Origin: Ureibacillus massiliensis 4400831 = CIP 108448 = CCUG 49529
GTDB taxonomy: Bacteria; Bacillota; Bacilli; Bacillales_A; Planococcaceae
Assembly (NCBI RefSeq): GCF_000772965.1
Contig: NZ_JPVQ01000034.1
Span: forward strand, 1-37,932
Length of the DNA: 37,932 nt
Direction: 5' to 3'
Shown: positions 8,461-29,997 of the stretch, one piece after another
How the letters are laid out: every line of letters starts with the position of its first letter
How positions within the stretch are numbered: position 1 is the stretch's first letter
Notes under the pieces: generated by a model
What the model was told of the DNA's origin: nothing
The model's input: the letters and a program-made list of their open reading frames with translations, nothing else
Databases searched by the model: none
Translations under genes and position numbers: made by a program

Positions 8461-8489
8461 AAAAAGCACAATTCTTGTTGCAGAATTGT
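8461..8489 (-). terminator. Hairpin just beyond the 3' end of the outer intron
   Basis: ACAATTCT (8468-8475) and AGAATTGT (8482-8489) form a perfect 8-bp stem, followed on the minus strand by GCTTTTTC. It lies about five bases after the predicted 3' end of the group II intron, so the intron appears to sit immediately upstream of an intrinsic terminator. The rest of 8299-8460 shows no gene. Confidence 0.65.
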
Positions 8490-8541
8490 TGGCAATAGGT
8501 AAGCGTTTGATATTATCTCCAGCTTTTCCCCTGCTCCACAC

Positions 8542-8574
8542 GGAACGTGATAGTTTCCCATCATTCCGCGTTCC
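8542..8574 (-). ncRNA. Domain V-like hairpin of the outer intron
   Basis: On the minus strand GGAACG...CGTTCC closes a roughly 33-nt hairpin with an inner TGAT/ATCA stem and a GGGAAACT apical part. Size and position (55 bases after the IEP stop, about 45 before the intron end) fit catalytic domain V. The catalytic triad is not the standard AGC, so I am less sure than for the inner intron. Confidence 0.55.
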
Positions 8575-8628
8575 ATCTAGCGATGGCTTTGTTAATTATA
8601 AGTTTCAAGTTACTCTAAGTGATTTGGG

Positions 8629-9587
8629 TTATTCAATTCGTTCTAGCTCACATTTCTTCCGATATTTATTGATTTTCTCAACCATCGGTTGTGATATTTC
8701 CAAATTCTTTATTAGTGTGTTTATCTTAGTTTTGTCAGTCATATGGATTAACTTATGAACATCTTTATGGAGGATGCGTAGGTTATTAAACTTGTCATTT
8801 CCACCTAGATACAGAGGAATATAGTGGTGACAGTGTACATCTTGAGCTTGAAGGAATATACCTGTAATTTCACAGTTTCCTTTTTTCATACTGTATCGAC
8901 TAATCCTATTGTCCATATATTCAACACTGCGTGTCAGAATCGTCGATTCCATCAGTAAGGCTATTTCTTGCTTGATATTTTTGTGTAGATTTTTATAAAT
9001 CTGCCCTCGACCTTCAACCGTGAATGGTGTTAGACTTTGCGTAAAGCAAATGGTATTTTTCGTCTGAACATTCGCTAGTGGATAAAGATAAATACCAGCA
9101 ATTTTAAATGTCTTACATCCCAAACTATAAAATTTTTTATAGGATGGGGGTGGATTCGTTGGATGTGCATACTTCCCGATTGACCTAAGACGATTGTACA
9201 TCATTGCACTGATTTCATAGGCAAGACGTGAGAACGCTAAGTTGACGTGTGTCGCTCTATTAAAGTAATTATGTAACCCTAAGACAAAGCTATTGAAACG
9301 CATAGCGTTTTGAATGGTTGGTGAAGAACGAAGTTCTTTCACTCGTTCCTTCGCTTCAGCTTTTATTTTCTGTATCTTTTCGGCACGAACAAAAGTGTGA
9401 GCCACTCGCTTTTTACCTTTTCTATTTGCGCGAATGGTAAATCCAAGAAAAGCTGATTCATTTTTACGTAGGTTAATAATCTTCGATTTTTCTGGTGAGA
9501 TATCGAGTTTTAACCGTTCTTTCAGAAATAGCTTTACAGCATGAAACCACCTTTCGGCGGTTTTTGCATCTCGACAGAGAATTTTAA
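8629..9587 (-). CDS. Outer intron IEP, 3' part: RT fingers end, maturase, HNH
   Basis: This is the second half of a group II intron-encoded protein. Reading starts in frame at about 9585 with KILCRDAKTAERWF, the segment that normally follows YADD. It continues through the RT7/thumb region (ESAFLGFTIR), the maturase domain X, and an HNH endonuclease (CEITG...VHCHHYIPLYLGG...NLRILHKDVHKLIH). No start codon is needed, since it is continuous with the first half at 11458-12294 once the inner intron is removed. The joined protein would be about 598 residues, the normal size for RT-maturase-HNH proteins. An internal ATG at 9405 could give a separate 258-residue product but is probably irrelevant. 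Confidence 0.85.
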
Positions 9588-9627
9588 GGTAAGTAGACCA
9601 CTGGAACCTCCCCAGTAGCCCCTCTCA

Positions 9628-9661
9628 GAACCGGACGTGAACCTCTCGACTCATCCGGCTC
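9628..9661 (-). ncRNA. Domain V of the inner group II intron
   Basis: On the minus strand the 34-nt element starts GAGCCGGATGAGTC, has a GAGA-type loop and ends CACGTCCGGTTC. The AGC catalytic triad and overall form match domain V of group II introns. It starts four bases beyond the stop of the inner IEP. Confidence 0.9.
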
Positions 9662-9664
9662 CCA

Positions 9665-10909
9665 TTATTCAGCCGTAGGCTTGATACCTATCTCCCAATG
9701 TTTAAAGAGCTTGGGAGATTGCTTTGCTATTCTACCTAGAAAATTTTCTGCTCTCTTTTTATGACGGGCAAACCTCTTATATTTCCTTCTTGCCCACATG
9801 ACTAAGACTTTGTTAATATGCCTTAAAGTTGAGTACATCTCCGATTTGTAGAATTTGCCATAGTAGTTAATCCAGCCTCTAATTGCCGAGTTGAACATCA
9901 TCGATAGGTCTATGAGTTCCTTTTCTGCTTTTAATTGCAGTTTCCAATCTCTCACCTTCTGCCGAATTGATTTCTTTGACTTATTACTGATTGCAGGAGT
10001 GAAATTCACAAAATGCTTTCCCCATCTATTCTTTGATAATCTAGGTCTAAACGTATACCCTAGAAAATCGAACGAAGTGTTTTCATGTTCCTCTTTTCTA
10101 TCTGCATCCTTGCAATATACAATTCTCGTTTTAATTGGATGCAACTCGAGTTTACACTCATTCATTCTCTTATTTAAGGATTCGAGCAATTTCTTTGCTT
10201 CATCTTCTGTCTTACAGTGGATGACTGCATCATCTGCATATCTTGCAAATGGATTGTTTGAGTGATAGATTGACATCCATTTATCGAACGCATAGTGTAG
10301 GAATAAGTTAGCTAGAACTGGACTTATTACCCCACCTTGCGGTGTACCTGATGTGCGTTCTATCATTCCTTCTTTTGTCTGGAAAGGTGTCTTTAACCAT
10401 CTTTTGATATACAGTTTTACCCATCTGTTTTCTGTATGCTTTTCCACTGCTCTCATTAACAATTCATGATCAATATTATCGAACAATCCTTTAATATCAA
10501 ATTCTAAAACCCAGTTATATTTCCAGCACCTTTTGCGTGTAATTTCTATTGCTTGAATTGCATCTTTCCCTGGTCTATATCCATAGGAATCTTCATGAAA
10601 GAACGGTTCAACCGTAGGTTCGAAATATAATTTCGCTGTCATTTGTGCAATTCTGTCAGCAACTGTCGGAATTCCTAGCGTTCTGGTACCTCCAGCTTTC
10701 TTCGGTATGTCTACCGCTTTTACTGCTGGTGGAAAATAACTCCCTGATGACATTCTGTTCCATAATTTATACAGGTTGTCTTTAAGATTCAATTCGAATT
10801 CTTCTATTGACACATCATCAATTCCAGCTGACCCTCTGTTTGCCTTAACTCTTAAGAAGGCTTCATATACTATGTTTTTAGATATCTTATATGGCTTTGT
10901 TTTCCTCAT
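9665..10909 (-). CDS. ltrA: Inner intron-encoded reverse transcriptase/maturase, class D
   Basis: A 414-residue group II intron protein. RT motifs: GIDDVSIEEF (RT0/1 region), EFDIKGLFDNIDHELL (RT3 with catalytic Asp), TPQGGVISPVLANLFL (RT4), FARYADDAV (RT5, catalytic YADD) and FDFLGYTFRPR (RT7). The C-terminal maturase domain X includes RGWINYYGKFYKS and RRKYKRF. The protein ends without a DNA-binding/HNH endonuclease domain, which is the hallmark of RmInt1-like class D introns; such introns retrohome using nascent-strand primers. The frame is intact and of full length, so the intron may still be active. Confidence 0.93.
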   Translation of the reverse strand: MRKTKPYKISKNIVYEAFLRVKANRGSAGIDDVSIEEFELNLKDNLYKLWNRMSSGSYFPPAVKAVDIPKKAGGTRTLGIPTVADRIAQMTAKLYFEPTVEPFFHEDSYGYRPGKDAIQAIEITRKRCWKYNWVLEFDIKGLFDNIDHELLMRAVEKHTENRWVKLYIKRWLKTPFQTKEGMIERTSGTPQGGVISPVLANLFLHYAFDKWMSIYHSNNPFARYADDAVIHCKTEDEAKKLLESLNKRMNECKLELHPIKTRIVYCKDADRKEEHENTSFDFLGYTFRPRLSKNRWGKHFVNFTPAISNKSKKSIRQKVRDWKLQLKAEKELIDLSMMFNSAIRGWINYYGKFYKSEMYSTLRHINKVLVMWARRKYKRFARHKKRAENFLGRIAKQSPKLFKHWEIGIKPTAE

Positions 10910-11457
10910 AAGTTCCTCCCAGCTTTATGGTTGACTTATTTGTAAAACTGAATAATATAACCCCTTCGCTCCATCTCCGTTAGGAGATTTCATCACTACT
11001 ACGAGTTATTCCGCCCCTATACATGGCATTGGTACTCTGATTCTCGTGGGGCTTCCACTTGAAATCTCTCCCTTAACATCCATGTCGGAGGTTCCCACGT
11101 TCCACACAGAAGCCTGTATTAAGTTCACGCCGCCTTTATACCGGTCACCGAACGGACAGTAAACAGGTTTCCTCCGAACTTATCCCGAGTTAACGACTCC
11201 CCCTCGGTTTTGATGACATCTATACGCTTTCGATACTTCCTCAGCGGTTCAATGGTTTTCGTCTCCTTAATACGTACCTGACAGAATCTCGTTCTGCCTT
11301 TTCCCTAACGCTCAATACCATAGCTTTTGACTATAGCACCTTAGGGTGGTTTGCAATCTCTACCTGTATAGCGATTGCGAGAGGCCTACTCTCATCTTTT
11401 GTGCAGCATAGCTCCCTTGTGTGCTTACGCACAATTTGGTTGCTTTCGTGGCACACA

Positions 11458-12294
11458 GTCATCAGCATAACGGACTAGATATCCTTCCTTCAATTGGGTT
11501 CGCTTTTTGGCAAGGAGTTGACCCTCTCTTGTCTTAAATGGTTTATGTAGAGGAAACCATTCCCATTGTTTAGATACCCATTGATCTAATTCATTTAAAA
11601 CAATATTTGATAATAGTGGTGAAAGTAACCCACCTTGTGGAGAGCCTTTTGTCGGTATACCTTCTCCATCAATCTCGGATTTTAACATTTTGGCTATACA
11701 TGCAAGGACTTGCCTGTCTCTAACACCTAAATTCCAAAGTTGTTTAATCAGTAAGGTATGATTGATATTGTCAAAAAAGCCTTTAATATCAATGTCTACA
11801 ACGTAGTGGAGTTGTGACTGGTTGACTAGGTATTGGATTCTAGCCATAGCATGATGAGTAGACCTTAACGGTCTAAATCCATAACTATGATTGAAGAAAT
11901 GAGCTTCCGCTATTGGTTCTAAAACTTGTTTGAAGCACTGTTGAATAATTCTATCGAGGATACATGGAATGCCAAGTGGTCTCATTTTGCCATTATCTTT
12001 TTCTATTAACTTCCGTCTTACTTTCTTCGGGCGATAATTCTTGAGCTGTTTTTGTATTTCTTCTATTAAATTGTTCTCAGTATATTTCTCAATATCTAAA
12101 ATGGTTTTCCCGTCTGTACCTGGGGTTTTTGAGCCTTTATTTGATTTGATTATGCGATACGCCAGTAAAATATTATTCCTCGACGTGATAATGTCGTATA
12201 AGCAATGGAATGTTTCTTTATTTTTAGCTCGCTTATGTAAATCTGTAAAGGTTTCGGTCATACCATAATAATCCCAATATCGTAGAGCTTGCAC
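11458..12294 (-). CDS. Outer intron IEP, 5' part: RT domain up to YADD
   Basis: The N-terminal 279 residues of the outer intron protein. Motifs: SNKGSKTPGTDGKT, DNGKMRPLGIPCILDRIIQ (RT1/2), VVDIDIKGFFDNINH (RT3, catalytic Asp), TKGSPQGGLLSPLLSNIVL (RT4) and LVRYADD (RT5). Coding sense stops exactly after the last GAC of YADD: the next ten codons (to a stop at 11425) are inner-intron RNA sequence. The start is GTG at 12294 or the ATG at residue 12; both are plausible and an AAGGA stands upstream. Without splicing the RT lacks its thumb, maturase and HNH parts (8629-9587), so function depends on removal of the inner intron. Confidence 0.87.
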
Positions 12295-13004
12295 TGTGGC
12301 ATCATTCCTTCATGAAGTGATGTTCCCACATTCTTACCCGACCGGTGCAATACACCTTTGAAAAATAATTATTAACTACCACTAGACTTGGGGCTGTTCC
12401 TCCGCCTTCATTACAAAGGCTTCGTCAGTCGTACCCCTACCCTCACAAGGATAAATACATTTCGATTAAAATCTTATAGCAAACGTTTCAGGTGACAGCC
12501 TTCATTACAACGTTCCTTGCTTTCCAAGTACCTTACAACGTAGCTATCCATTCTTAACGTAGGTGCTTCCTTTAAGCCTGTGAACTAGATACCGCCATCG
12601 TTCGGTATAGCGTATTTCAGAGGGCGCATTTTTACTCCACACCATTCACCCCATCGTAAGATGGTACATGCGTTTCCGCATGCTCAATCTATAGACCCTT
12701 ACCTTCGGAAGTTTGTCAGTTCTTTTCTAATAGAACTATTCTCACCATATTAAGTTTTTCAGCCGTGCGGCATATCCGTTGGCATACCTTTTCCAGAGGA
12801 ATGGCTGCAGCCTTCGTTCTGCCGAATCCACCTGTGCTTCACACCCTATGTCCTGTCAGACATAACGCATGCAGGAGTATTGACGGGATAGTTTCAGAAA
12901 ACATGGTTTCTTCATTCCTATCCTCCGTTGTAAAGTTAAAAATTTGCCACGCAAACTTTCCTGTATTTCATGAAATAAATCACTTATAACAGAACTTGTC
13001 GCGC

Positions 13005-29922: not shown

Positions 29923-29997
29923 AATTGTTTTCCGATTTTTTTATAATGCGCACCGTTTCCCTCCTTTTAGCGCAGGTTGCTTATTACAAGCAATTTC

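Follow-up and report, generated by a model that had tools for sequence, protein, structure and literature searches.

A group II intron at the YADD codons of other group II introns: a nested pair in Ureibacillus massiliensis and its relatives

The window analyzed here is the whole stretch of 37,932 nucleotides (nt) at positions 1 to 37,932 of contig NZ_JPVQ01000034.1 of Ureibacillus massiliensis 4400831. Its minus strand carries a group II intron whose reverse transcriptase (RT) gene is interrupted by a second group II intron, inserted within the codon that follows the catalytic YADD motif. An original prediction, made from the sequence of the window, had proposed such a twintron; beyond that proposal, the YADD position is the homing site of a lineage and not an accident. 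The insertion is precise, empty alleles exist, the site recurs across outer intron types and phyla, guides and targets covary, and several genomes bear signs of recent movement.

Two nested introns at one locus

The features of the locus are listed from the 5' end of the outer intron.

8489–13004, minus strand: outer group II intron of Rfam D1D4-5 type (RF02004 and RF00029 matches; 5' end accurate to a few bases)
12756–12940, minus strand: D1–D4 core of the outer intron (RF02004, group-II D1D4-5, 89.4 bits)
11458–12294, minus strand: outer intron-encoded protein, N-terminal part up to YADD, 279 codons from GTG (TIGR04416 match stops at profile position 215)
9588–11456, minus strand: inner group II intron, 1869 nt (empty sites in G255, G238, G127 and Halobacillus amylolyticus; Rfam domain V/VI match ending at 9588)
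11276–11393, minus strand: D1–D4 core of the inner intron (RF01999, group-II-D1D4-2, 120.6 bits)
9665–10909, minus strand: inner RT-maturase, 414 residues, own YADD intact, no endonuclease domain found (RVT_1 and GIIM matches only)
9588–9663, minus strand: domains V–VI of the inner intron (RF00029, 52.3 bits)
8629–9587, minus strand: outer intron-encoded protein, C-terminal part with maturase region and HNH-like end, starting within the codon after YADD
8489–8573, minus strand: domains V–VI of the outer intron (RF00029, 56.5 bits)

The outer intron measures 4516 nt with the insert and 2647 nt without it. Its ends are backed by copies in other genomes, whose flanks diverge beyond 8489 and 13004; the 3' end, originally put at 8495, is placed at 8489 by Rfam. 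Two minus-strand open reading frames (ORFs), 12294–11425 and 9405–8629, are the halves of one RT-maturase, with a 414-residue ORF (10909–9665) between them. The outer RT frame runs to ...VRYADD, the codon for the last D ending at 11458, and the following codon is split in phase 1, T (11457) being joined to TT (9587–9586) to encode Phe, followed by KILCRDAKTAERWF. The protein had been predicted to reach YADD at 11458 and to resume at about 9585, with the insertion at the catalytic motif; the exact resumption is the TT at 9587–9586, and both the reading frames and an empty allele place the insert within the codon directly after YADD. As read from the frames, the protein of an unspliced outer mRNA stops ten residues past YADD and lacks the maturase domain. 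The RT-maturase-HNH protein expected after removal of the insert is partly borne out: its frame is continuous, as in an uninterrupted homolog of 603 residues in G255, whereas the HNH part gives only a weak Pfam match (19.0 bits, E 0.0015, below the cut-off of 21.4), with the motif visible by eye.

The inner intron starts with GTGTGCC at 11456, which fits the GUGYG consensus of group II intron 5' ends, and its RF00029 match ends at 9588, coinciding with the boundary of the empty site. The inner RT scores 426 bits against TIGR04416 and shares 59% identity with introns on Sinorhizobium meliloti plasmids. Because of this identity and because no endonuclease domain was found, the intron appears to be in keeping with the RmInt1-like kind, which we take to be class D. 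Its predicted completeness, with an intact RT and a domain V, agrees with the D1D4-2 and RF00029 matches and the 414-residue RT, and the two introns are of different Rfam types, D1D4-5 outside and D1D4-2 inside, in line with the proposal of two classes. The same twintron occupies the same place in another genome (G248), from which the window differs at 2 of 9132 nt outside the inner intron; inside it, 36 bases differ, 35 of them within 9717–10570, and a piece of the inner intron has probably been exchanged. Alkalihalophilus pseudofirmus OF4 likewise contains a full homologous twintron (L009/L083).

Copies of the outer intron lacking the insert were found, as the prediction had asked. In G255, which belongs to the same genus, the outer intron is uninterrupted and carries the 603-residue open frame; its protein is 100% identical to the outer N-terminal part of the window over 279 residues, and the DNA identity is 99.5% over 1548 nt on one side and 99.8% over 1099 nt on the other, the flanks meeting at 11457/9587. 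The insert therefore comprises 11456–9588. The outer C-terminal part is contiguous with the N-terminal part in loci L096/L169. The flanking frames align as one protein in an uninterrupted homolog at near-identity, and the failure of alignment named in the prediction as grounds for rejecting it did not occur. Three copies in G238 have no insert at the site, one of them with a shorter open frame of 412 residues, nor has a more distant outer copy on a Halobacillus amylolyticus plasmid. The locus is thus a complete intron within an intron, with exact empty alleles known from G255, G127 (L167) and Enterococcus avium (L148).

In the genome of the window, the locus itself was the single match to the outer N-terminal part at E<=1e-80, and no near-identical helper acting in trans was seen; two further group II RT genes are present, one of them with a stop. 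With no other copy of the outer RT turning up at this threshold, the outer intron very likely depends on splicing of the inner intron or on another maturase.

Recurrence of the YADD site across the lineage

Relatives of the inner intron were collected by a first search in one genome per species, of which the best 80 of 226 inner-RT relatives were kept, so that the family set leans to close relatives; later searches added loci, and an order-level search covered the same 261 genomes as the family search. This yielded 110 family loci, the window included. Seventeen loci without a placed 5' end and at least 15 nt of exon were left out, and of the remaining 93, 52 end at GCNGAYGAYn immediately before the intron (50 of 91 once the duplicate records L087, equal to L011, and L142, equal to L130, are removed). 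The set is defined by GCNGAYGAY at positions -10 to -2, so that invariance there follows from the definition, while bases -13 to -11 are free to vary. The 52 loci come from about thirty genomes, several of which hold more than one copy; all inner copies found in the genome of the window (one) and in G127 (five) lie in RT genes. Not counted among the 52 are near misses such as L013, whose exon fell short of the filter length, L038, which is offset by one base, and three loci with other motifs, L036 (YCDD), L127 (RYGDD) and L128 (YADA).

On the RT tree, a clade of 32 rows with an SH-aLRT value of 100 is labeled YADD throughout, the labels of L003 and L089 resting on the 3' flank, the only one read for them; it comprises Bacillaceae, Caryophanaceae, Bacillaceae plasmids and genomes of the same family. 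Outside this clade, the YADD rows comprise Enterococcus avium with Oceanobacillus, a set with Sulfobacillus and a Methanosarcinaceae metagenome-assembled genome (MAG), Candidatus Paracaedibacter with a Holosporaceae MAG, a Nitrospirae MAG and a Flavobacteriales MAG, the single-contig MAG rows being possibly misbinned. The label changes 8 times on the tree, at least 5 changes being forced by starred branches. The habit would be either old, with losses, or of repeated origin.

The outer introns that host the lineage at YADD fall into five Rfam types, D1D4-2, -3, -4, -5 and -6. Thirty-eight loci were submitted to typing, and not every host gave a D1–D4 match (none, for example, for L031 and L010).

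D1D4-5 hosts at YADD: window, L004, L008, L009, L012, L016, L029 (Rfam)
D1D4-6 hosts at YADD: L005, L007, L014, L015, L017, L018, L021, L028 (Rfam)
D1D4-3 with D1D4-1 hosts at YADD: L011, L020, L030 (Rfam)
D1D4-4 host at YADD: L006 (Rfam)
D1D4-2 hosts at YADD: L040, L041 (Rfam)

TIGR04416, the group II RT profile, matches nine of ten host N-terminal pieces tested; seven matches end at profile position 215, the one in L130 stops at 211 and the one in L031 at 206, and L127 gives no match.

Signs of recent movement come from genomes with several copies. Three inner copies of Bacillus sp. OV166 agree at all 1872 nt; one of them lies in a D1D4-6 host and another in a D1D4-4 host. A fourth copy has 15 differences. 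Sporosarcina globispora has three copies without a difference over 1868 nt, hosted by introns of types D1D4-6 and D1D4-3. In Sporosarcina, the inner 5' end follows YADD in all four full outer 5' halves, alongside two truncated and three short matches. In G127, the outer halves of a filled (L164) and an empty (L167) copy are identical (0/1543 and 0/1094 differences), and L163 and L164 share an identical inner intron (0/1875), with 59 differences between their outer 5' halves. L163, also recorded as L092 (G127:C1:3212800-3219300), is itself chimeric, the 5' half of its outer RT being of the window type and the 3' half (VCCFQYESEAQEFFQ) of another intron type, as if two twintrons had recombined through their inner introns.

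Enterococcus avium carries six inner copies that differ at 0 of 1864 nt, in three host introns. Among the six full copies of one outer intron, five are filled; the remaining copy is empty and reads GATGACT|GCAATATC at the junction. A 246-base fragment makes up a seventh match. The five filled copies align with one another only from about the outer 5' end inward and are therefore located at different sites. Nine bases vary among them in the outer part, and the first 1500 nt of the inner intron are invariant. Copying of the twintron as a unit, which was considered, fits this distribution less well; separate insertions into already dispersed outer introns, or conversion, would fit better. In one E. 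avium locus (L029:5577-6911), the outer C-terminal half is interrupted again by an ORF that by eye resembles an IS110-type transposase, so that the outer intron holds two insertions.

Several relatives outside the YADD set have other targets. The 5' exon of L049, L050, L054, L055 and L056 ends in ...W-x-I/V-E|, and that of L043 and L047 in KWV[AV][DN]..|. By eye, these distant relatives seem to sit in codons of conserved transposase motifs (W.IE|N and KWVAD), possibly at the catalytic E and D, and class D introns may have a wider habit of using catalytic-motif codons, with the YADD lineage as one instance. Four relatives in G346 (L129, L136, L137 and L138) have identical RT proteins and lie at aaccagggggacggtt|, with a different and fully paired EBS1 (exon-binding site 1) guide, AACCGTC, forming a re-targeted branch. 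On a Neochlamydia plasmid (L141), EBS2 still fits TATGC, and EBS1 CTTAGTT fits GACTAAG in a YAD-stop site; here the guide appears to have shifted in step with its target. In Cysteiniphilum marinum (L048), a relative lies directly after the apparent 3' end of another copy (ggtctactctcc|), a tandem arrangement.

Guide and target pairing

In a covariation scan, the 5' parts of the introns were aligned and every offset was scored for pairing with the intron's own 5' exon against the exons of others. The resulting guides and their targets carry the standard names of these pairings, EBS1 and EBS2 in the intron and IBS1 and IBS2 (intron-binding sites) in the exon.

11192–11198, minus strand: inner EBS1 guide AGUCGUU (covariation scan and permutation test)
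11223–11227, minus strand: inner EBS2 guide GCGUA (covariation scan)
11457–11463, minus strand: IBS1 in the outer RT gene, GATGACT, covering both Asp codons and the first base of the next codon
11465–11469, minus strand: IBS2 in the outer RT gene, TATGC, covering the Tyr codon and the first two bases of the Ala codon

The scan has one clear peak for the seven exon bases next to the intron, at nt 258 (AGUCGUU in the window), where 6.12 of 7 positions are paired with the cognate exon against 4.34 with non-cognate exons, a difference of 1.77, compared with 0.56 at the next best offset. The cognate mean was reached in 0 of 20000 permutations, with all 45 distinct pairs or with the 28 non-YADD pairs alone. 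The best EBS2 offset is nt 229, where GCGUA pairs with exon positions -13 to -9, and 4 of 20000 permutations reach the cognate mean overall. Against TAYGC-N-GAYGAYT, the guides of the window pair at 5/5 (EBS2) and 7/7 (EBS1) positions, G-U pairs included.

Across 23 non-redundant guide/target combinations, G is the guide base opposite the third base of the second Asp codon in 21, of the first Asp codon in 21 and of the Tyr codon in 20; it meets T in 13, 14 and 11 of these cases and C in 8, 7 and 9, respectively. The other three combinations at the Tyr position have a guide A, which always faces T. As a control, 25 non-YADD relatives with at least 6/7 pairs were scored, and there an exon T is met by A in 39 cases, by G in 5 and by T in 2; an earlier version (A 44, G 10, T 2; 30 introns) was replaced since it still included near-YADD rows. 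The third base of the Ala codon (-8), which sits between the two pairings, is A in 12, T in 11, C in 9 and G in 8 of 40 distinct exons. The -1 base covaries as well (A-T 12, G-C 3 and T-A 1 among the 23 combinations).

Behind the family's own YADD codons, each of the 98 sites read has G (86) or A (12), and none has T. Self-avoidance through the -1 base was rejected as a separate claim, given that non-YADD relatives have the same bases and that Paracaedibacter copies have inserted behind A or G at -1; the lack of T after the own YADD may be a class trait.

In whole genomes, the pattern TAYGCNGAYGAYT occurs 4 times in the genome of the window, 8 times in G127 and 10 times in Sporosarcina, with 2, 4 and 5 occurrences of a backwards-pattern control. 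Half of these 22 sites (3, 3 and 5) lie within group II RTs, and 8 of those 11 are filled (1, 2 and 5). The three free sites are one in G127 and two in the genome of the window, where the RT match runs on across the site. Five further outer copies in G127 have C at -1 and were missed by the pattern, three being filled and two empty.

C74:24755-24767 and C94:103524-103536, genome of the window (G000): free guide-matching sites in group II RT genes

Away from the twintron, the window also contains a glmS riboswitch-ribozyme at 29931–29760 on the minus strand (RF00234, 122.6 bits).

Mechanism, alternatives and significance

The inner intron very probably belongs to a class D lineage that retrohomes into the YADD codons of other group II introns, with splicing required to restore the RT of the host intron. 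Reverse splicing into DNA, splicing in vivo and the dependence of the outer intron on that splicing are steps that we infer from sequence. EBS2 GCGUA would pair with TAYGC, the free third base of the Ala codon would be skipped, and EBS1 AGUCGUU would pair with GAYGAYT; at the third positions of the Tyr codon and both Asp codons, a guide G would accept T or C, the synonymous options there. The intron would reverse-splice after the first base of the codon following YADD, and the inner RT would copy it in. The absence of an endonuclease suggests that priming would come from the replication fork, as the available parts of a review describe for endonuclease-less introns (PMC4424553). The outer RT would be without an active site until the inner intron leaves the mRNA, and by sequence, splicing would restore the frame exactly.

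On balance, we lean narrowly toward a broader interpretation, in which the lineage is a hyperparasite with guides matched to the codon degeneracy of YADD. Any group II RT with T after YADD would then be a target, whatever its class or codon usage, the lineage's own YADD would be a poorer target, and the RT and maturase of a rival intron would be controlled by splicing of the inner one.

Several observations count against these interpretations. EBS2 covariation is weak in non-YADD relatives, the cognate mean being reached in 569 of 20000 permutations. Minimum-energy folding of the isolated guide region failed to produce the expected EBS1 loop, and the guides rest on covariation. The -1 base is mismatched in 7 of the 23 combinations, A faces C in L126 and L130/L142, and L046, though at YADD, pairs at only 2/5 and 3/7 positions. 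The combinations are moreover related by descent, so that Fisher values and formal p-values overstate independence. Further, 5 of 37 distinct YADD loci readable on both sides have a short or broken outer frame (L002, L010, L011, L023 and L140), and two of the four Sporosarcina copies align to L151 only about 110 and 770 bases into the inner intron. Site specificity for the YADD codons is well supported.

The most serious alternative, though still an unlikely one, concerns the guides: G at the third positions could be an inherited accident of one ancestral guide and not a fit to codon degeneracy. One guide is common to many members, and with YADD rows in several clades and 8 label changes on the tree, few independent origins can be counted. 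Against inheritance alone, both guides are nearly invariant while the surrounding bases vary, G stands at all three T/C positions, with the sole N position left to the unpaired gap, A is favored opposite T in non-YADD relatives (39 against 5), and the guide A at the Tyr position faces T in all three cases.

It is less probable still, and in our judgment doubtful, that the inner intron targets YADD but splices poorly, the outer RT being killed and the dead pair kept by linkage. The five defective outer frames and the two partly aligning Sporosarcina copies would suit such a course. However, the outer frame is open for at least 218 residues before and at least 148 after the insert in the other 32 of the 37 loci (13 YADD loci for which the two sides were not both readable, Paracaedibacter copies among them, lie outside this count, and the 32 include L029 with its second insertion further on and the chimera L092). 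Phase 1 insertion, exact rejoining, and a D1 and domain V/VI at the two ends are what splicing requires. An ordinary chance twintron, landing once at a YADD position without special meaning, is very improbable: bacterial twintrons are known and the window alone is one case, but the same base is used in 52 of the 93 placed relatives and in five outer RNA types, with guides that fit the site and covary with it.

Homing of the YADD lineage can be set beside several known systems. RmInt1-like class D introns, as in Sinorhizobium meliloti, share with the inner intron an RT-maturase without an endonuclease domain, the inner RNA being of Rfam type D1D4-2; RmInt1 homes to an insertion sequence, whereas the target here is the RT gene of another group II intron. 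Staddon et al. (2004), to go by the title, reportedly found group II introns using a conserved target in relaxase genes of conjugative elements, which again differs from a target in another group II intron.

Nested introns are themselves not new, bacterial twintrons being already known from the consulted parts of two papers (PMC2882425, PMC4424553), the second of which, a review, treats them there as few cases with little effect on the cell. In TeI3c/TeI4c of Thermosynechococcus elongatus, an intron occupies one place in the RT ORF of several introns, with identical inner and diverged outer introns (PMC2882425, in the part available), and both traits are shared with the YADD lineage. According to the same part, that inner intron is ORF-less and lies between the first two ATGs, so that the ORF could be read unspliced, and one RT serves both introns; in the window, by comparison, the inner intron encodes an RT itself, differs from the outer one in Rfam type and interrupts the codon that follows the catalytic motif. 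In Porphyridium plastids, one inner intron is found in two outer introns at the same site, the outer proteins being truncated remnants; same-site nesting is shared, and no YADD site is described in the portion of the source consulted (PMC4476101). The Hamiltonella defensa intron c-Ha.de.I1 has three copies within other copies at a specific position and others in IS elements; the likeness lies in the specific intron-in-intron position, and the accessible part of the source describes no RT-motif target or codon-matched guide for this self-nesting (PMC3522654).

In the open-licence PubMed Central literature, subscription papers being outside the scope, no description was found of a YADD-homing lineage across intron classes or of a codon-matched EBS; neither appears in the available parts of PMC4476101, PMC2882425, PMC4424553, PMC8919778, PMC3522654, PMC3706431, PMC3073962 and PMC4028801. 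The YADD-homing group is probably under-counted, because nested introns escaped the pipelines of two intron surveys, as the parts seen of these papers state (PMC8919778, PMC4028801).

For the biology of these elements, the proposed homing would mean that a site-specific retroelement gains a large and horizontally spreading set of targets by reading the stretch that its rivals can least change. The fit of the guides to the genetic code, with G at two-fold positions and the four-fold position unpaired, would offer a directly testable example of tolerance to synonymous change in RNA guides. Where empty and filled alleles occur naturally within one genome, the effect of an inserted intron on the mobility of another element would become measurable.

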